In this document: one piece after another, positions 9,034-22,145 of the stretch
Position numbering within the stretch: position 1 is the stretch's first letter
Layout of the letters: each line of letters begins with the position of its first letter
Assembly (NCBI GenBank): GCA_021809895.1
Contig: JAJZJU010000015.1
Location: forward strand, 1-34,858
From: a bacterium
Lineage (GTDB): Bacteria; Chloroflexota; Dormibacteria; Aeolococcales; Bog-877
Direction: 5' to 3'
DNA: 34,858 nucleotides
Notes under the pieces: generated by a model
What the model was told of the DNA's origin: nothing
What the model saw: the letters and a program-made list of their open reading frames with translations, nothing else
The model's database searches: none
Made by a program: the position numbers and the translations under genes

Positions 9034-10248
9034 ATGAGCGATCAGCTGTCGACGCGCCCTCCGGGAGCGCTCGCGCAACCGCCTTTGGCGAGGAAGTTCC
9101 AACGTGATCCCGCCAAGGCGCCGACCGAGGATCTCCGAGAGGCGGTATTCGAGCTGGAACGGCAGGGGGAGTGGGTGGTCCAGCGGGTCCCCGAGCCCTA
9201 CATCGAGGTCGAGACCAAGTACGGGCGCACCAAGAAGATCCCCACGCAGCACACCTGGCACCACAAGAGCTGCGGTCAATGCGGGCACATCCCCGGTTAC
9301 TCGACCTCGATTTTCTGGCTGCACCGGGCCCTGGAACTGGACTACAACGATCCCCGGGACCAGACCTCCTGCACGGCCTGGAACTACTACGCCTCGGCGA
9401 CCTCCAACGCGGCCGCCCAGGCGGCCGTCGCCCAACGCAACTTCGCGGCCGCCTACGAGACCGGCTACTACCCCATGATCCATTGCGGCACCAGCTACGG
9501 CCACTACAAGGAGGTCCGGGAGCAGCTGGTGCACAACCCCGAGCTGCGCCACCAGGTGCGCGACATCATGGCCCGGCTGGGCAAGCCGCTGGTGATCCCG
9601 GAGGAGATAGTGCACTACAGCGAGTGGGTGCACGCCATGCGTGAGGAGTTCGCCAAGCGGCGGGTGCTCGACCTCTCCAACATCACGGTCACGGTGCATC
9701 CCGCCTGCCACTACTACAAGCTGGTCGCCGAGGACGCCATCTACGACGAGGACATCTACAGCGGCCAGCGCACCGCGGTGGTGTCGGCGGTGGTCCAGGC
9801 CATGGGAGCCACCGTGGCCGACTACTCGACGTGGTTCGATTGCTGCGGTTTCGGCTTCCGGCACATCCTGGTGCAGCGCGACTTCACCCGCTCCTTCGCG
9901 ACCTTGCGCAAGATCCAGGTGATGAAGGAGGAGGCCAACCCAGACGTGGTCCTGACCCACGACACCGGCTGCGTCACCACCCTCGACAAGAGCCAATTCG
10001 TGGGCCAGGCCAAGGGCTACAACGTCGGCATCCCGGTGATGTCGGAGGCCCAGTTCGTGGCCCTGGCCATGGGCGCCCATCCCTATCGGGTGTGTCAGCT
10101 GCACTGGCACTCGGTCGACTACCGGCCGCTCCTGGAGAAGATGGGCATCGACTGGGAGGCGCGCTGGGCCGAGTTCGAGCAGGACCTGAAGCGGATACAG
10201 AGCGGAGAGATGCAGTACCTCACCTGGGAGCAGACCGGTGTCAGATGA
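9034..10248 (+). CDS. shdrB1: sHdr HdrB-like subunit (B1-type)
   Basis: HdrB proteins bind the unusual non-cubane iron-sulfur clusters that act on disulfides. This 404-residue product has two cysteine-rich CCG-type modules. The first contains SCGQCGHIPGYSTS and DQTSCTAWNYYA. The second contains VHPACHYYKL, then WFDCCGFGFRH and HDTGC. The C-terminal QLHWHSVDYRPLLEKMGI is typical of HdrB proteins from sulfur-oxidiser gene clusters. A leader of about 85 residues before the first cysteine is longer than in methanogen HdrB. It is followed immediately by the HdrA-like gene, which is the position of HdrB1 in sHdr clusters. The start is the ATG preceded by an AGGAGG site. The naming B1 rather than B2 rests on gene order and general resemblance, so it is less sure than the family. 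Confidence 0.85.
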   Translation: MSDQLSTRPPGALAQPPLARKFQRDPAKAPTEDLREAVFELERQGEWVVQRVPEPYIEVETKYGRTKKIPTQHTWHHKSCGQCGHIPGYSTSIFWLHRALELDYNDPRDQTSCTAWNYYASATSNAAAQAAVAQRNFAAAYETGYYPMIHCGTSYGHYKEVREQLVHNPELRHQVRDIMARLGKPLVIPEEIVHYSEWVHAMREEFAKRRVLDLSNITVTVHPACHYYKLVAEDAIYDEDIYSGQRTAVVSAVVQAMGATVADYSTWFDCCGFGFRHILVQRDFTRSFATLRKIQVMKEEANPDVVLTHDTGCVTTLDKSQFVGQAKGYNVGIPVMSEAQFVALAMGAHPYRVCQLHWHSVDYRPLLEKMGIDWEARWAEFEQDLKRIQSGEMQYLTWEQTGVR

Positions 10249-11302
10249 ATCAGTTCTGGTCATAGGCGGCGGCCCGGCCGGCCTGGAGGCCGCGCGGGGG
10301 GCGGCGGACCTGGGCAGTGAGGTGATCCTGGTGGAGCAGCGCGCCCGCCTGGGTGGCACTCCGGATTCGGCGGGCTACTCGGCGTTTGCGCTCGACCATC
10401 GGCCGGCCCAGGAGGTGCTGGAGATAGCCCGCCAGGCGGTGCTCACCCATCCTCTGGTCAGGGTCCACCTGGAGACCGAGGTCAGCTCGTTCGCGGGCGA
10501 GCTGGGGTCCTTCAGGGCGACGCTGAAGGCGGCTGACGGGACTCTCACCGAGGTCAGCTGCGGCGCCGTCATCATCGCCACCGGCTTCGATCACTTCGAC
10601 CCCGGCCGGGAAACCCAGTCCTACGGCTACTACGAGTTCGAGGACGTCATCACCCTGGTCGACGCTGAGCGGATGCTCCAGGCCAAGAACTTCGTGCGCC
10701 CATCCACCGGCGAGCCTCCCAAGCAGGTCTGCTTCATCCAATGCGTCGGGTCCCGCGACCGCCGGATCGGCAACGAGTACTGCTCCAAGGTCTGTTGCGG
10801 GGTCGCCACCAAGGAGGCCTCTGAGATCCGGGAGCTGGTCCCCGACTGCCGCGTATTCATCTTCTACATCGACATGCGCATGTACGGCTTCTGGGAGGAC
10901 CGCATCTACTGGAAGGCCCAGGAGCAGGACCACGTCAACTTCGTGCGCGGGATCGTGACCGAGATCACCCGCAGGGGCGACCGCCTGGTCATCAAGGGGG
11001 AGGACACGACCATGAACCGCCCCATGGAGATCCCCATGGATGTGGTCGTACTCTCGGTGGGGATGGTGCCCTCCGAGGGGACCAAGGCGGTGGGAAAGAT
11101 GCTCGGCGTGGCCCAGGACAAGCATGGCTTCATCGTGCCTTCGGAGAGCGCCCTGGACACGGTCGCCACCTCGGTGCCGGGCATCTACGTGGCCGGGGCT
11201 GCGGCCGGCCCCAAGGATCTCGACGACTGCGTCTCCATGGCCGGGTCCGCCGCCATGAAGGCGGTGGCGGCTCTCCGCCGCCGGTCTCCGGTCTCTGTGT
11301 GA
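10238..11302 (+). CDS. shdrA: sHdr HdrA-like flavoprotein
   Basis: This 354-residue protein is a compact HdrA. It has an N-terminal FAD loop IGGGPAGLEAARG (GGG at residues 10-12), a second flavin half ending in AGAAAGPKDLDDCVSMAG, and the cysteine site CVGSRD (C169) with YCSKVCCG (C182, C186, C187). Unlike QmoA and QmoB it has no inserted ferredoxin clusters, which is the layout of HdrA in sulfur-oxidising Hdr-like complexes. In those complexes it is thought to form the flavin core that links sulfur chemistry at HdrB sites to electron export. The GTG start overlaps the preceding gene by 11 bases, and its stop overlaps the next GTG by four. Direct involvement in oxidising LbpA-bound sulfane sulfur is known only for relatives and is inferred here. 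Confidence 0.9.
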   Translation: MSDESVLVIGGGPAGLEAARGAADLGSEVILVEQRARLGGTPDSAGYSAFALDHRPAQEVLEIARQAVLTHPLVRVHLETEVSSFAGELGSFRATLKAADGTLTEVSCGAVIIATGFDHFDPGRETQSYGYYEFEDVITLVDAERMLQAKNFVRPSTGEPPKQVCFIQCVGSRDRRIGNEYCSKVCCGVATKEASEIRELVPDCRVFIFYIDMRMYGFWEDRIYWKAQEQDHVNFVRGIVTEITRRGDRLVIKGEDTTMNRPMEIPMDVVVLSVGMVPSEGTKAVGKMLGVAQDKHGFIVPSESALDTVATSVPGIYVAGAAAGPKDLDDCVSMAGSAAMKAVAALRRRSPVSV

Positions 11303-12048
11303 TGGCGATGGCCGGCCACGGCCAGGTGGTCGACACCGAGGCTGCCCAGGAGTTCATGCGCGAGGCTCAGCGCCTGATCCAGGTGCCCGAGCTCGACGGC
11401 ATCGCCATGGAGCTCGAGGTCAAGTCCAGGCGGTTCCGGGAGCTGCTGGACCAGAGCTCGCTGTCGCAGCTCTCGCACGACCAGCTGCGCGGCTGTCTGC
11501 GCACGATATTCGCGGCCCGGCGGCACTCCGACGAGCTGCTTGCCCAGGTAGGGGATGAGCGGTGGCGCCAGGTTCTCCAGAGCCTCCTCCACGGCCCGGG
11601 ACCGGTGGGGGCCCGGATCGACTCGTTCGACAAGGAGCTAACCGAGGTGGAGAGGGGCGTCCGCCGCGACGTGGCCGGCGAGGTGCTCCACTTCTTCGAT
11701 CCCGAGCGCTACTGGCTCTGGACCCGCTGGATCTGGGACCCAGATGTTGGGACCGGCGCGCTGCCGCTGGTGACCATGGCAGATCACGACCTCTCCGCTA
11801 TCTCCGCGGGCCAGACCTATCTCAGGGTGGGAGAGGGGATCGCCTTCGTCAATAAGACCGGTCGTTCGGTGGGATTCACTCGCTTCGGCGATGAAGCATT
11901 CGGCGTCGATGTCTACCTCGCCTGCGTATATGGGGTCTATCTCTACACCATCACCAGGATCCGGATGACCCAGGAGTTCAACAAGGTCATCCCACCCTTG
12001 CCGCAGCTGGCCCGCCGGCTGCTCGGCGTCCACCGGATGGAGGTCTGA
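11299..12048 (+). CDS. shdrH: sHdr-associated conserved protein (HdrH-like)
   Basis: This 249-residue protein has no cysteine cluster, signal peptide or clear enzymatic motif. It is rich in charged helices in the first half (about 1-125). The second half is more hydrophobic, with aromatic patches such as FFDPERYWLWTRW and YLACVYGVYLYTI, which look like a globular domain rather than membrane spans. The assignment rests mainly on position: a gene of unknown function called shdrH lies directly after shdrA in characterised sHdr clusters, and this one overlaps shdrA by GTGA and abuts the next gene exactly. The first codon may be the GTG at 11299 or the ATG at 11302. Its role could be assembly or scaffolding of the complex, but nothing in the sequence shows this. 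Confidence 0.7.
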   Translation: MMAMAGHGQVVDTEAAQEFMREAQRLIQVPELDGIAMELEVKSRRFRELLDQSSLSQLSHDQLRGCLRTIFAARRHSDELLAQVGDERWRQVLQSLLHGPGPVGARIDSFDKELTEVERGVRRDVAGEVLHFFDPERYWLWTRWIWDPDVGTGALPLVTMADHDLSAISAGQTYLRVGEGIAFVNKTGRSVGFTRFGDEAFGVDVYLACVYGVYLYTITRIRMTQEFNKVIPPLPQLARRLLGVHRMEV

Positions 12049-17062: not shown

Positions 17063-17459
17063 ACAAGGCTCCAACGCGGAGGCCCTGGCCGCCGCAATCG
17101 GCGACCGCCAGGCCGGCCTCCTGCGTGCCCAGGAGCGCTGGAGGGCGCTGGAGACCCGCCCTGCGGGCACGCAGGTTGCGCCGGGCGGAGGGCGCGAGCT
17201 CTCGGAGGCGCTGTTGCGCCGGGCCCTGCAGTGCCTGGCGGGTTCGTCCGAGTACGCCCTGGCGCGGCAGCTGATGGGGAGCCGCCAGCTGATAACCGCC
17301 GATCCGCTCACTGAGCTATCCCTCCAGGCGCTGGCGCAGGCGGGGCTGGCGAGCTGGGATCCCAGCACCGGCGAGCTGGCCGCGACCGCTCTGCTGGAAG
17401 CGCTGATGGGCTTCTTCGACTCCGCGGTCGAGGGAGCTGTCGGGGATGGCAGGCTGTGA
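17049..17459 (+). CDS. Hypothetical protein in the sHdr operon (136 residues)
   Basis: The family is not recognised. The product has one cysteine, no membrane span and no signal peptide, and is alanine/leucine-rich and probably mostly helical. Reading begins at a TTG overlapping the EtfD-type gene by 14 bases; no better start is evident nearby. The stop overlaps the GTG of the next small gene (GTGA). Third-position GC is high along the frame, as in its neighbours, which supports real coding. Location between an electron-transfer module and the lipoate-binding proteins suggests an accessory role in sulfur oxidation, but this is guilt by association only. Confidence 0.65.
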   Translation: MPSPEQGSNAEALAAAIGDRQAGLLRAQERWRALETRPAGTQVAPGGGRELSEALLRRALQCLAGSSEYALARQLMGSRQLITADPLTELSLQALAQAGLASWDPSTGELAATALLEALMGFFDSAVEGAVGDGRL

Positions 17460-17746
17460 CCTGTCCCTTCTGCGACCGCCCCGGGGAGCGTCGGGAGCTG
17501 CATGCGCACATGCTGAGCGACCATCCCGACCGGCTCATCACCAGAGAGGAGGCGGGGCGCATCTTCATGGAGGTCAACTGCCCCGCCTGTTCCGAGGGCA
17601 TCAGCAAGGAGGTGAACCCCAGAGGTCGCGACCCCCTGTTCCTGGACAAATTCGCAGACGAGATTAGGATGGTGGGCTTCGACCTCCTGCTCTACCACTG
17701 GGAGACGCATGCAGGGGCCGCTGCAGAACAACCGACGGAGGGATAG
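17456..17746 (+). CDS. Small zinc-finger-like protein before lbpA (96 residues)
   Basis: The product begins MTCPFCDRPGERRELHAHML, with a CxxC pair followed by a cluster of histidines (HAHMLSDH) that could form a C2H2-type zinc site. A second CPAC pair lies at about residues 42-45, and DLLLYHWETH is near the C-terminus. No known family is recognised. The GTG start overlaps the preceding stop, and its TAG is two bases before the lbpA start. Tight packing and a cysteine/histidine pattern make a real metal-binding protein likely. It could assist cluster or lipoyl-protein handling, or be regulatory; the sequence does not decide. Confidence 0.7.
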   Translation: MTCPFCDRPGERRELHAHMLSDHPDRLITREEAGRIFMEVNCPACSEGISKEVNPRGRDPLFLDKFADEIRMVGFDLLLYHWETHAGAAAEQPTEG

Positions 17747-17748
17747 CC

Positions 17749-18186
17749 TTGGCGACAGTCAACAACTGCAACATCCCCGACGACCTCCACTACCTGATCG
17801 ACAAGCATGTATGGGTCCAGCGGGAGAGCGACGGCGCCGCCCTGATCGGGATCACCGATGTGGCCCAGAAGCTGGCCGGCAAGATCATCGTCGTCACCAC
17901 CAAGAAGGTGGGCCGCTCGCTGACCCGGGGCCAGAGCACCGGCACCATCGAGAGCTCCAAGTGGGTGGGGCCGATCCCGAGCCCCCTGACCGGTGAGATC
18001 CTGGCCGTGAACCAGGCCCCCCAGGACGACCCCACAGTCCTCAACCGGGACCCCTACGCCAACTGGATAGTGCGCCTCCAACCCGCGGACTGGGATGGGG
18101 AGAGCGGCGACCTGGTGACCGGGTCCGATGGCGTGGAGGCCTACCGCCGCCTGCTCGAGGCGGAGGGGATCGACTGCGGCAGCTGA
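17749..18186 (+). CDS. lbpA: Lipoate-binding protein LbpA, first copy
   Basis: LbpA is a GcvH-like protein whose lipoyl arm carries sulfur intermediates to the sHdr complex. The 145-residue product has the biotinyl/lipoyl fold. The modified lysine is expected at K71 in TIESSKWVGP, where true GcvH has ESVKA. DDLHYLIDKHVWV near the N-terminus and NRDPYANWIVRLQP after the lipoyl hairpin are family features. The TTG start is supported by a GGAGGG site at 17737-17742 and lies two bases after the preceding stop. It overlaps the next lbpA by three bases. No gcvP or gcvT genes are nearby, which argues against a glycine-cleavage role. Confidence 0.92.
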   Translation: MATVNNCNIPDDLHYLIDKHVWVQRESDGAALIGITDVAQKLAGKIIVVTTKKVGRSLTRGQSTGTIESSKWVGPIPSPLTGEILAVNQAPQDDPTVLNRDPYANWIVRLQPADWDGESGDLVTGSDGVEAYRRLLEAEGIDCGS

Positions 18187-18653
18187 TGATGGAAGCTCTC
18201 CCTCGCGTCCACCAGGGCTGTGCCATTCCCGAGGAGTTGGAGTACGACCTCGAGAAGGACGTGTGGGTGCGCTTCGACCCCGACGGCACGACCACCATCG
18301 GCATGACCGACCCCGCCCAGACCAGGGCCGGCAAGCTGGTCAGCATCCTCTTCAAGCGCCCGGGCAAGATGTTCGAGGCCGGCCAGAGCGTGGCCACGAT
18401 AGAGAGCGCCAAGTGGGTTGGGCCGTTTCCCACCCCTCTGTCCGGTGAGCTCCTGGAGGTCAACCAGGCCCGCTTCGAGAAGGACATCCTGATCGCCAAC
18501 CGTGACCCCTACGGCGAGGGCTGGCTGGCCCGGCTGAGGCCCACCGACCTTGCCCAGGAACGGCAGCGGCTGACCGCCGGCGCCCGGGCCTTCGAGTTCT
18601 ACAAGGAGCGCATCGACCGTGACGGAATCCGATGCTTCCGCTGCGCAGACTGA
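18186..18653 (+). CDS. lbpA: Lipoate-binding protein LbpA, second copy
   Basis: This second GcvH-like protein (155 residues) lies directly after the first, with its ATG overlapping the first copy's TGA. The lipoyl lysine is expected at K76 in TIESAKWVGP. The N-terminal IPEELEYDLEKDVWVRF and the RDPYGEGWLARLRP segment are shared in pattern with copy one, but the rest has diverged considerably. The two are therefore old paralogs rather than a recent duplication. The C-terminus adds a short extension ending CFRCAD, giving a CxxC pair not present in copy one. An adjacent ATG at 18189 is an alternative start. The second copy may serve a different partner, for example a different Hdr subunit. Confidence 0.91.
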   Translation: MMEALPRVHQGCAIPEELEYDLEKDVWVRFDPDGTTTIGMTDPAQTRAGKLVSILFKRPGKMFEAGQSVATIESAKWVGPFPTPLSGELLEVNQARFEKDILIANRDPYGEGWLARLRPTDLAQERQRLTAGARAFEFYKERIDRDGIRCFRCAD

Positions 18654-18840: not shown

Positions 18841-19069
18841 AGGCGCCGACAAAACGCTCGACTGTCTCCACATGATGTGCCCCATGCCGATCGTGAAGGT
18901 CTCCAAGGCGATCAAGGAGGTGGAGGTGGGGCAGACCCTGCTCCTGATCGCGGACGACCCCGGGGCCACCCCCGACATCCAGACCTGGTCCCGGCGGATG
19001 GGTCACGAGCTGGTGGCCACCGAGCAGGAGGGCAAGGTGCTCCGGTTCCTGATCCGGAGGACCAGCTGA
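18830..19069 (+). CDS. tusA: TusA-family sulfur carrier
   Basis: TusA carries sulfane sulfur as a persulfide on a conserved cysteine and, in sulfur oxidisers, delivers it to the sHdr/LbpA system. The 79-residue product has LDCLHMMCPMPIVKV, with the catalytic cysteine at C17 in the CPMP motif and an extra cysteine at C12. The DDPGATPDIQTWSRRMGHEL segment is also typical. A GGAGGG ribosome site precedes the ATG. Its stop overlaps the ATG of shdrC1, tying sulfur delivery to the complex. Confidence 0.93.
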   Translation: MAIEGADKTLDCLHMMCPMPIVKVSKAIKEVEVGQTLLLIADDPGATPDIQTWSRRMGHELVATEQEGKVLRFLIRRTS

Positions 19070-19752
19070 TGCGTCCCACCTCGATCCCGGAGGCGACCGC
19101 GGAGGAGAAGCAGCGCATCTTCAGCCAGGTGCAGGCGGACATCCGCTTCCCGGAGTACCTGAAGGGCTGTTACGAATGCGGGATCTGCGTGGCCGCCTGT
19201 CCCTCCGCCCGTTTCTACAACTTCAGCCCCCGCCGCATCACCCAGGCGGTCGCCCGCCAGGACATCGACCTGGTCTGGGAGCAGATGAACGGCGAGGTCT
19301 GGGACTGCTCCCAGTGCTTCTCCTGTCTGCGCTGCCCCCGCGGCAACAACCCGGGTGGGGTGATAACCATCCTGCGCGAGGTGGCGGTCAACAACGGCCT
19401 CGGCACCGCCAAGGAGGCCCTGGAGGGATACGGCCGGATCATCTACAAGATCATGGGGACCGGGACCCAGGTCTCCCCGGACATGATCCAGCCTGAGGCG
19501 TTTCCGGATTGGGGGCCCGAGACCAAGGCGACCTCCGAGAATCTGCAGCTGTGGCGCAAGGCCCTGCCGCCGGAGACCCTGCACACCACCAGCACCTCGT
19601 GGGACGTGGCCCCCAAGACCCTCACCGAGCTCTACCTGATCTGGCACCTGACCGGGGTCCTGGACATGATCAAGGGTGTCGACCCCAACCTGCACGCCAT
19701 CCTCGGCGACGTCATGGAGGAGATGCTGGAGGAGGAGGGCTACCAGGTCTGA
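19069..19752 (+). CDS. shdrC1: sHdr HdrC1-like ferredoxin subunit
   Basis: This 227-residue protein holds two [4Fe-4S] sites, CYECGICVAACP (C34, C37, C40, C44) and CSQCFSCLRCP (C80, C83, C86, C89). SARFYNFSPRRI lies between them, characteristic of HdrC in sulfur-oxidising clusters. The C-terminal part is helical and acidic (DVMEEMLEEEG). In standard sHdr clusters shdrC1 is the first gene, before shdrB1; here it is about 9 kb away at the end of the array, after tusA. The ATG overlapping the tusA stop is chosen because it matches the family start. The last 41 bases overlap the 3' end of the convergent minus-strand gene. Confidence 0.9.
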   Translation: MRPTSIPEATAEEKQRIFSQVQADIRFPEYLKGCYECGICVAACPSARFYNFSPRRITQAVARQDIDLVWEQMNGEVWDCSQCFSCLRCPRGNNPGGVITILREVAVNNGLGTAKEALEGYGRIIYKIMGTGTQVSPDMIQPEAFPDWGPETKATSENLQLWRKALPPETLHTTSTSWDVAPKTLTELYLIWHLTGVLDMIKGVDPNLHAILGDVMEEMLEEEGYQV

Positions 19753-21058
19753 GCCGCCAGAAGTCGCCCTCCGCGCAGAAGAGGTACAGGTCATCTCCCA
19801 CCCACTCACCCCTGGCCGGGCGCTGGAGGTTGGCCTGCCCGACCGTCCCCCCCTCGCCCACCACAAGGACACCCTCCCGGCAGTGGGCGACGACGCCGTG
19901 CCCCGTGGCTCGCAGCGAGCAGTGCCACCCGGCCGGCACCGGGACCACTCGACCGTCGGCCAGCTCCAGCTCGTCCGCCCCTCCAGCCGCGACCAGCTCC
20001 CCGCTGGAGTTGACGGCCAGGGTGACCGGCGAGCGGTGCCTGAGCCTCCCATCCTCCAGCTCCCGGCCCTCCCCATCGATGAGGTGCCAGCTGCCGGACC
20101 TGGTGGCGACCCAGACCCGCTCCGGCCCGGCCGGCCACACCCCGCCGACCTCCAGCAGATCGCTGACGACCAGGTGGTCCGGCGCTCCCCGCTCCTGGTG
20201 GATCAGGACCGCGTAGGCTTGGGCCACCACCCGGAAGCGGTGGGCCGCATCCGGCTCGTCGGGATGGTGATCGGGGTGGGTCTCCTTGGCCCGGCGCCGG
20301 AAGGCCCGCCGGACCTGGGTCGGGCTGGCGTCGGCGGGGATCCCGAGCACCTGGGCGGCCTGGCTCCGGCGCCGCTCCGAGACTTGGTCGGATGCTGCCA
20401 CCGCCGGCGCCTCCCAGCTCCAGCGCACGGCTCCCTCGCCGTCGAGCTCGGTGACGCCACCTCGCTCGGAGACCCACACCCGCCCGCCCTCCGGGTCCGC
20501 CCACACCCGCTGCTCTGGGGTGGCCGGCCACCCGGCCACCGGATGGCTCCAGCGCCTCCTGCCGTCGGGAAAGAAGGCGTGGAGCGCCCCTCCGGAGGTG
20601 GCGACCAGCACCAGCTCCGCGGCCGCCACGGTCTGCACCAGGACGCCCTCCATGGTCAGGAGTCGGCCCACCTCTCCCGCCGGAGAGAGCACCAGGAGCT
20701 CTCTGGCGAAGGGCCGCTTGCTGGCCCGCTCGGCGAGCTGGCTAGGCCAGCACCGCAACCAGATCCAGCCCTGGGGCGCCGCCACGATCCGCTGCGCCGG
20801 CAGCGGGAGCTGGGCCAGCGGCAGGTACTCCCGGTTCGGAGCCGGCAGTCGGGCGAGCTCAGAGCCTCCCATGTCGCGGGCCACCAGCACGGTATGATCC
20901 GAAGTCACGGCCCAGGCCCGCACGATGGGGCGCAGCGTGAGGGACTCGACCGTCATCAGCCCCGCTGGGAGGGGCCGCAATGGACTCGGAAGCTCTAGTC
21001 CGGGGGTGACCCGAACCGCTGGTGGGGGCGCGCTGGAAGCCAGGTCGGAGTGATTCAT
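19712..21058 (-). CDS. J-domain protein embedded in a probable beta-propeller
   Basis: The 448-residue product has a J domain at about residues 232-288, with AAQVLGIPADASPTQVRRAF and the HPD tripeptide at 261-263. It is flanked on both sides by repeating beta-strand segments of PQQ/WD-like character (for example VWVSERGGVTELDGEG and VWVATRSGSWHLIDGEG). The J domain would stimulate an Hsp70 partner. The propeller may be a docking surface. No signal peptide is visible. The annotated ATG gives a proline-rich leader and overlaps the divergent lipoate-ligase ATG by two bases (CATG). A downstream ATG (residue 35, starting at 20956) would leave about 100 bases for promoters and may be the true start. 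The 3' end overlaps shdrC1 by 41 bases tail to tail. It may be a client-specific chaperone for the sulfur proteins, but only position suggests this. Confidence 0.85.
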   Translation of the reverse strand: MNHSDLASSAPPPAVRVTPGLELPSPLRPLPAGLMTVESLTLRPIVRAWAVTSDHTVLVARDMGGSELARLPAPNREYLPLAQLPLPAQRIVAAPQGWIWLRCWPSQLAERASKRPFARELLVLSPAGEVGRLLTMEGVLVQTVAAAELVLVATSGGALHAFFPDGRRRWSHPVAGWPATPEQRVWADPEGGRVWVSERGGVTELDGEGAVRWSWEAPAVAASDQVSERRRSQAAQVLGIPADASPTQVRRAFRRRAKETHPDHHPDEPDAAHRFRVVAQAYAVLIHQERGAPDHLVVSDLLEVGGVWPAGPERVWVATRSGSWHLIDGEGRELEDGRLRHRSPVTLAVNSSGELVAAGGADELELADGRVVPVPAGWHCSLRATGHGVVAHCREGVLVVGEGGTVGQANLQRPARGEWVGDDLYLFCAEGDFWRLRPGSPPPPASPP

Positions 21059-22145
21059 GAAAGCTGTCAGGCTGCTGGATCTAAGGCTCTGCTCTTACAC
21101 CGAGAGTCAGACGCTCTATCACGCCGTCGCCGACAGCCTGCGTCCCGGTGACCCCAACACCATCATCCTGTGCCGGCCGCGGCGCCCGTATGTCTGCATC
21201 GGCCGCCATCAGGAGCTGAACCGTGAGGTCGATCGGGAGGCCTGTCGGCGGCTGGGGTTGCCGATCATGCGCCGTCAGGTCGGCGGCGGAGCCGTCTACC
21301 TGGATCGCGATCAGCTGTTCTTCCAGATAGTGTGCCATCCCCGGGACGTGCCCTCCAGCATTGCGGGCGCCTTCGAACACTTCGCCCAGGCACCCGTCGA
21401 ATGCTACCGGGCGCTGGGGGTGACCGGGGCGCACTTCGCCCCGGTCAACGACCTTCAGGTGGAGGGGCGCAAGATCGGGGGGCTGGGGGCCGCCACCATC
21501 GGGCGGGCTTTCGTCTTCGTGGGCTCGATCATCAGCGCCTTCGACGCCCGCGCCGCCGCCAGCGTTCTGCTGATTCCCGACGAGAAGATGCGCGACAAGG
21601 TGGCGGAGACCATGGAGGCATACGTTTCCAGCCTGGAGCGGGAGTTGGGCCGGCGCCCGTCGCCGCAGCTGGTCCGTCGCGAACTGGTGCATGCCTTCGA
21701 GGGGGTGTTGGGCTCCAGGCTGGAGCCGGGGAGGCTGCGGGAAGATGAGCGCGAGACGTACCACCGCTGGGTCCAGCGCATGCGCAGCGCCGCCTGGCTG
21801 GACGACGTGCGCTTCTCGGACGACCGGCTGAGGCCCGTGAAGATCACCGGCCACGTGCGGGTCGGGCGGGCCACCCACAAGGCGCCCGGTGGCCTGTTGC
21901 GGGCGACCGTGATGGTGGCCGAGGGACGCATCACCCAGGCTCTGGTCAGCGGCGACTTCTACGCGGTCGGACACGCGGTGGATGACCTGGAGGAGGCCAT
22001 CGTGGGGACAGCCGACCTGGCCCAGGTGCGGGAGCGCATCCGCTCGGCGTGGGTTGAGGACGCGCTCCCGGGGGTGGGGCTGAGCGACCTGGTCGAGGTG
22101 GTGCGCCTGGCCCTGGAGCCCGGTGCAGCGGCAGCGTCGGGGTGA
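21057..22145 (+). CDS. Lipoate-protein ligase, LplA+LplB type (sLpl-like)
   Basis: The enzyme activates lipoate (or octanoate) with ATP and attaches it to a lysine of a carrier protein. The 362-residue product has a catalytic LplA part with RRQVGGGAVYLD (residues 72-83) and NDLQVEGRKIGGLGAA (131-146, catalytic lysine K139). A C-terminal accessory LplB-like domain begins near residue 260 (VKITGHVRVGRATHKAPGG). This fused form is what I recall for the ligase dedicated to LbpA in sHdr organisms, and two lbpA genes lie 3-4 kb upstream. The start fits the family opening (AVRLLDLRL) and has GGAG six bases before the ATG. No LipS1/LipS2-type lipoyl synthase genes are in the window. A GCCCG/CGGGC hairpin follows the stop at 22146-22158. 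Confidence 0.92.
   Translation: MKAVRLLDLRLCSYTESQTLYHAVADSLRPGDPNTIILCRPRRPYVCIGRHQELNREVDREACRRLGLPIMRRQVGGGAVYLDRDQLFFQIVCHPRDVPSSIAGAFEHFAQAPVECYRALGVTGAHFAPVNDLQVEGRKIGGLGAATIGRAFVFVGSIISAFDARAAASVLLIPDEKMRDKVAETMEAYVSSLERELGRRPSPQLVRRELVHAFEGVLGSRLEPGRLREDERETYHRWVQRMRSAAWLDDVRFSDDRLRPVKITGHVRVGRATHKAPGGLLRATVMVAEGRITQALVSGDFYAVGHAVDDLEEAIVGTADLAQVRERIRSAWVEDALPGVGLSDLVEVVRLALEPGAAAASG

Follow-up and report, generated by a model that had tools for sequence, protein, structure and literature searches.

The window (the whole stretch of 34,858 nucleotides that was analysed) carries a cluster of sHdr, LbpA and Lpl genes; these names come from the present work and from the first-pass annotation, the relatedness to HdrA, HdrB and HdrC being supported by NCBIfam models at scores under their curated cut-offs. 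Within this cluster lies a gene whose product combines a J domain with flanks predicted to be of the propeller type (hereafter referred to as the J-propeller protein). The genes and features relevant to the present analysis are as follows.

9034-10248: ORF of sHdrB1
17749-18186, plus strand: GcvH-like lipoate-binding protein LbpA1 (Pfam GCV_H, E 7.5e-32)
18186-18653, plus strand: GcvH-like lipoate-binding protein LbpA2 (Pfam GCV_H, E 1e-30)
19069-19752, plus strand: sHdrC1, HdrC-like ferredoxin subunit (NCBIfam HdrC, E 1.5e-22, under the curated cut-off; start taken from frame comparison)
19712-19752, no strand assigned: antisense 3'-end overlap of the J-propeller gene and sHdrC1, 41 bp (of equal length in 4/4 genomes)
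19712-21058, minus strand: J-propeller protein, 448 aa (ORF, Pfam, homologs and frame test)
19739-20158, minus strand: predicted C-side propeller flank, residues 301-440 (strands in the model, fold matches reaching the model end; best sequence match E 0.04)
20192-20353, minus strand: J domain, residues 236-289 (Pfam PF00226, E 8.1e-14)
20270-20278, minus strand: HPD motif, residues 261-263 (from the sequence; invariant in 4/4 homologs)
20405-20953, minus strand: predicted N-side propeller flank, residues 36-218 (PDB profile match to PQQ propellers and model; residues 36-139 with pLDDT <50)
21057-22145, plus strand: LplA-type lipoate-protein ligase, sLpl candidate (Pfam LplA-B_cat, E 4.8e-33)

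The J-propeller gene was found in four genomes, namely G000 (the window's own, approximately 86% complete), G002, G010 and G004, and in all four it lies on the opposite strand between sHdrC1 and LplA, antisense to the sHdr cluster and outside its operon. The first-pass annotation had placed it between shdrC1 and the lipoate ligase, and the HdrC-like neighbour on one side and LplA on the other confirm this. The Sat/AprA block is located downstream of the ligase in G004 and upstream of the Hdr genes in the window, the sHdrC1-J-LplA triplet being unchanged; the triplet and the 41-bp overlap are thus retained in homologs with 51-55% protein identity, although other genes around them have moved. 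lplA and the J-propeller gene diverge from one CATG that both start codons share (window 21055-21060), likewise in G002 and G010 and not in G004, an arrangement that leaves no room for a noncoding leader or promoter.

The ORF on the minus strand (19712-21058) is open across 448 aa, and in a six-frame comparison of the four homologs this frame alone is free of internal stops in all of them, with substitutions most frequent at its third codon positions; the reading frame is therefore real. By a simple counting method, dN/dS of the whole gene is 0.36-0.58, compared with 0.21-0.47 for LplA and 0.10-0.24 for sHdrC1, indicating weaker constraint on the J-propeller gene than on its neighbours; a crude estimate restricted to the J domain gives 0.41 against G002, 0.32 against G010 and 1.22 against G004. 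The conserved C-terminal tail (about residues 436-448) was considered as a functional element and rejected, because this stretch is antisense to the end of sHdrC1, with which it overlaps. Simple hydropathy, which is not a signal-peptide predictor, shows no prominent hydrophobic signal or membrane segment: the maximum Kyte-Doolittle mean over 19 residues is 1.64, and it falls inside the N flank. A search for defence-family matches to the protein and an Rfam scan of the window yielded none.

The J domain is assigned with a Pfam DnaJ score of 51.9 bits against a cut-off of 27.8, is matched in all four members and is the sole Pfam match to the window protein up to E 1. Helix II is still basic and resembles that of the DnaJ proteins of the same genome; DnaJ's helix IV is not conserved, nor is the R-N that usually follows the HPD. 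The complete mid-protein J domain with HPD that had been read from the sequence thus stands, occupying residues 236-289 of 448. The accompanying remark that J domains are usually terminal is valid for classes A and B and fails for class C, whose members may carry the J domain anywhere (PMC13254874), so that the internal position is not new in itself. The same source describes class C proteins as specialists that bring Hsp70 to one or few clients (PMC13254874).

The regions flanking the J domain were analysed by profile comparison, repeat searches and structure prediction. Profile comparison of the N flank (residues 36-225) with the PDB identifies PQQ-type propellers (the designed Cake10 at E 1.1e-19, 3hxj at E 8.3e-10 and, weakly, BamB). 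The C flank gave no significant match, the best being a teneurin-like protein (E 0.04) followed by IFT80 (E 0.13), and comparison of the two flank profiles with each other gave E 0.005 at a probability of 7% over 25 columns. An HMM built from the two best-defined blades on the N side, run against the C flanks of the four sequences, gave full scores of 3.3, -2.1, -5.6 and 3.0, where the 95th percentiles of shuffled sequences are 3.4, 3.3, 3.8 and 2.7; only one of the four exceeds its shuffles, marginally (3.0 versus 2.7), so the C-flank scores of these sequences are not convincingly above background. The same HMM reports one single blade in the window protein (domain E 0.0005), and Pfam PQQ_2 is matched in one of the four members at E 0.029 only.

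The first AlphaFold run, with two full-length sequences, reached pTM 0.30 and was left out of the fold search; the model of residues 36-440 has pTM 0.50 and a mean pLDDT of 57.8, which corresponds to moderate confidence. This model places four-stranded units on either side of three J helices (residues 223-238, 246-260 and 271-286 of the window protein, i.e. model number plus 35). Foldseek with this model returns BamB structures first (best E 9.3e-10, TM-scores about 0.3-0.45). The top chain in VIA-align has Z 16.3 and rmsd 4.7 over 262 aligned residues, with model range 16-405 covering both flanks on one target; the top chains listed are all structures which we take to be propellers. In the fold alignments of this pTM 0.50 model, both flanks match single propellers and the J helices are the unaligned remainder. 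Most likely, then, the two flanks would form one propeller, with the J domain placed at the connection of two successive blades. The C-side propeller depends on the model, as the repeat and profile tests of that flank are weak; closure of the ring is predicted on the same basis, and, with residues 36-139 poorly modelled, the prediction leaves the number of blades at 7 or 8. The earlier reading of propeller-like repeats on both sides is thus supported on the N side by profile and on both sides by the model, and on the C side not by sequence; the structure prediction proposed as its check models the flanks as a propeller, that is, as a repeat domain.

Full-length homologs were identified in four of 41 genomes among the relatives (another nine match over the J region only), in four of 50 genomes of the order, in four of 110 of the class and in three of 400 in a phylum sample in which scoring was limited to the top four candidates of each genome. 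All belong to one family (f1), with protein identities of 77, 55 and 51% to the window protein. An apparent fifth homolog (L016), the only locus from the genome_contigs scan and 77% identical, was discarded, being evidently from the same genome as G002. Eight further genomes of the class match the J region only, as classed from the match range alone. Eleven J-region-only matches (two in the window's own genome, nine in relatives; L008 was left out) were read as ORFs, and most are ordinary DnaJ/CbpA-type proteins, L011 being a J protein with a hydrophobic tail. No J-less paralogs of the N flank were found in the 50 genomes of the order besides the same four proteins; viral contigs gave no relative, and plasmids none to the N flank. 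Scattered homologs in unrelated contexts, which would have spoken against a link to the sulfur genes, were not encountered, all four occupying the same slot.

The distribution of the J-propeller protein was compared with that of sHdrB1. In family f1, sHdrB1 is present in four of 18 genomes, exactly those with the J-propeller protein. In the class, sHdrB1 occurs in seven of 110 genomes, among them all four with the J-propeller protein, the other three being G025, G043 and G379; the J-propeller protein is absent from all 103 class genomes that lack sHdrB1. In the phylum sample, sHdrB1 is present in 25 of 400 genomes, of which three have the J-propeller protein and 22 do not. These counts come from incomplete genomes, whose gaps could hide some genes. 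As the genes are adjacent, the co-occurrence speaks for joint inheritance of one block no less than for a functional link. With the protein in only four of the seven sHdrB1 genomes of the class, it is a lineage-specific accessory and not a core sHdr part, and its absence from most sHdr clusters implies that assembly of sHdr evidently does not require it.

The organisation of other clusters was examined in regions from 12 of the 22 sHdrB1 genomes of the phylum sample outside f1 and from G025, likewise one of the 22, together with G043; none of these regions, several of which end early, contains a J-propeller match. As far as the contigs extend, the usual order outside f1 is sHdrA, an unnamed ORF, a fused HdrC/B protein, EtfB, a membrane Fe-S subunit, a zinc-finger-like ORF, LbpA1, LbpA2 and a ligase. 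sHdrC1 precedes sHdrB1 in 11 of the 12 regions; among the clusters compared it follows LbpA2 only in f1 (window 19069-19752) and in the exception, G379 (family f4). In G379 (L077:5098-7193), a Mrp/ApbC-type ATPase (PF10609, E 1.8e-90; PF01883, FeS_assembly_P, E 4.4e-22) occupies the position between sHdrC1 and ligase that is held by the J protein in f1; after it come a third GcvH-like protein, two radical SAM proteins and a second ligase. G025 and G043 have three GcvH-like proteins in their sHdr clusters, the third (L041:8552-8884 and L042:545-934) being more distant. Two other small proteins recur in these clusters. One, of 249 aa (window 11299-12048), is encoded between sHdrA and the fused HdrC/B protein; it is kept across sHdr clusters of the phylum and has no Pfam or NCBIfam match at the limits used. 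A 96-aa zinc-finger-like ORF just upstream of LbpA1 (window 17456-17746), with no Pfam family above cut-off, is in the same place in seven of the 12 regions (several others end earlier) and has no match in G025 and G043.

A search for Hsp70 (PF00012, E 1e-30) identified one protein each in G000, G002 and G010 and no match in G004 (86% complete). All three are DnaK, scoring above the NCBIfam DnaK cut-off and below those of HscA, and an HscA-type partner was not found in these three genomes. G000 holds two further, ordinary DnaJ-type proteins. With a single DnaK per genome, the J-propeller protein, if active, would share it. The HscB C-terminal domain (HSCB_C, PF07743) was found in none of eight genomes, the E. 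coli control being positive, so that no Isc-type J protein would compete.

Taken together, these data lead us to favour, tentatively, a soluble class C J-domain protein that acts through the housekeeping DnaK in a role tied to the sHdr/lipoyl system. A single PQQ/BamB-like propeller, split by a J domain of working type that is inserted where two blades connect, would bind one neighbouring sHdr/lipoyl component, for which the ligase, LbpA and an apo Hdr subunit are the candidates; through its HPD the J domain would recruit DnaK and trigger its ATPase at the client, helping with folding, cofactor loading or remodelling. The contact with DnaK, the client and the outcome are all conditional here, and a service to Hdr or lipoyl proteins is what we infer from gene position.

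A stricter form of this proposal, in which the protein is a dedicated co-chaperone of the sulfur-oxidizing Hdr/lipoyl machinery, whose propeller grips an apo component and whose J domain, set in the ring, hands it over to DnaK, in a slot that a Mrp-type Fe-S carrier holds in a sister cluster, appears rather unlikely. The first-pass annotation had raised such a dedicated Hsp70 co-chaperone; the constant slot in 4/4 genomes agrees with it, but G000, G002 and G010 have no dedicated Hsp70, their only one being DnaK, and most sHdr clusters do without the J protein, which speaks against a general role.

Alternatively, a general or unrelated J protein may have been inserted in the ancestor of one family and carried along, so that its position would say nothing about its client, a passenger explanation that is possible and, in our judgement, on the unlikely side. 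It would account for the restriction to one family, for the many sHdr clusters without the protein, for the antisense orientation to the operon and for the faster evolution relative to the neighbours, and linkage within one family may reflect shared descent. It fits less well with the lack of the protein in all class genomes without sHdrB1 and with the preservation of the triplet and overlap where other flanking genes were rearranged.

The divergent starts of the J-propeller gene and lplA could also suggest a scaffold or regulator, in which a pathway component is sensed or bound by the propeller and the J domain serves for docking only, or tunes a repressor via DnaK, controlling the divergent ligase gene rather than enzyme building; we consider this improbable, as Pfam revealed no DNA-binding domain in any of the four members, the start arrangement differs in G004 and the HPD is retained in all four homologs. 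An Fe-S delivery factor specifically for Hdr subunits, similar to HscB or to the G379 carrier, whose FeS_assembly_P domain and position in the same slot, with the lack of HscB in the eight genomes, prompt the idea, is less probable still, given that G379 is a single genome, that HSCB_C is not matched by the J-propeller protein at any E up to 1 and that none of its four cysteines falls within invariant columns of the four-homolog alignment.

The reading we favour, of a class C protein working through DnaK, is of interest for two reasons. A J protein genetically tied to the sHdr cluster offers one candidate, open to testing, for a step that involves a chaperone, and an interrupted propeller would mount the J domain unusually, in a rigid and fixed place on a client-binding ring. 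We know of no earlier chaperone of sHdr maturation, and the J-propeller protein, if the stricter proposal is true, would be the first. In the literature searched, lipoate attachment is the only aspect covered of how sHdr, a complex with several Fe-S clusters, and its lipoyl carrier mature (PMC10332631).

The closest known systems share individual features with the protein. Its N-flank blades resemble BamB and PQQ-type propellers by profile, and BamB is the top Foldseek match; unlike BamB, it carries a J domain and is cytosolic by simple hydropathy, with no hydrophobic N-terminal stretch. With HscB/Jac1 it would share the proposed service of a J protein to Fe-S or sulfur enzymes, and HscB homologs can operate with a generalist Hsp70 (PMC13254874); in contrast to HscB, it has no HSCB_C domain and no HscA-type partner is seen in G000, G002 and G010. 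Its gene is located inside a cluster like the sHdr-LbpA sulfur-oxidation system with sLpl/LipS lipoylation (PMC10332631), but unlike regular members of that system it is missing from most sHdr genomes examined. Among titles and abstract starts of open-licence papers, searched for DnaJ with sHdr or for a J domain with a propeller, PQQ or WD40, such a protein was not reported. The protein falls with the class C (type III) J-domain proteins, with an HPD-bearing J domain away from the N-terminus (PMC13254874) and without the class A/B zinc finger and DnaJ C-terminal domains (Pfam up to E 1). Relative to the class C cases in the literature searched, what appears to be new is the combination on one such protein of a J domain lying within a predicted propeller and a linkage to the sHdr cluster.
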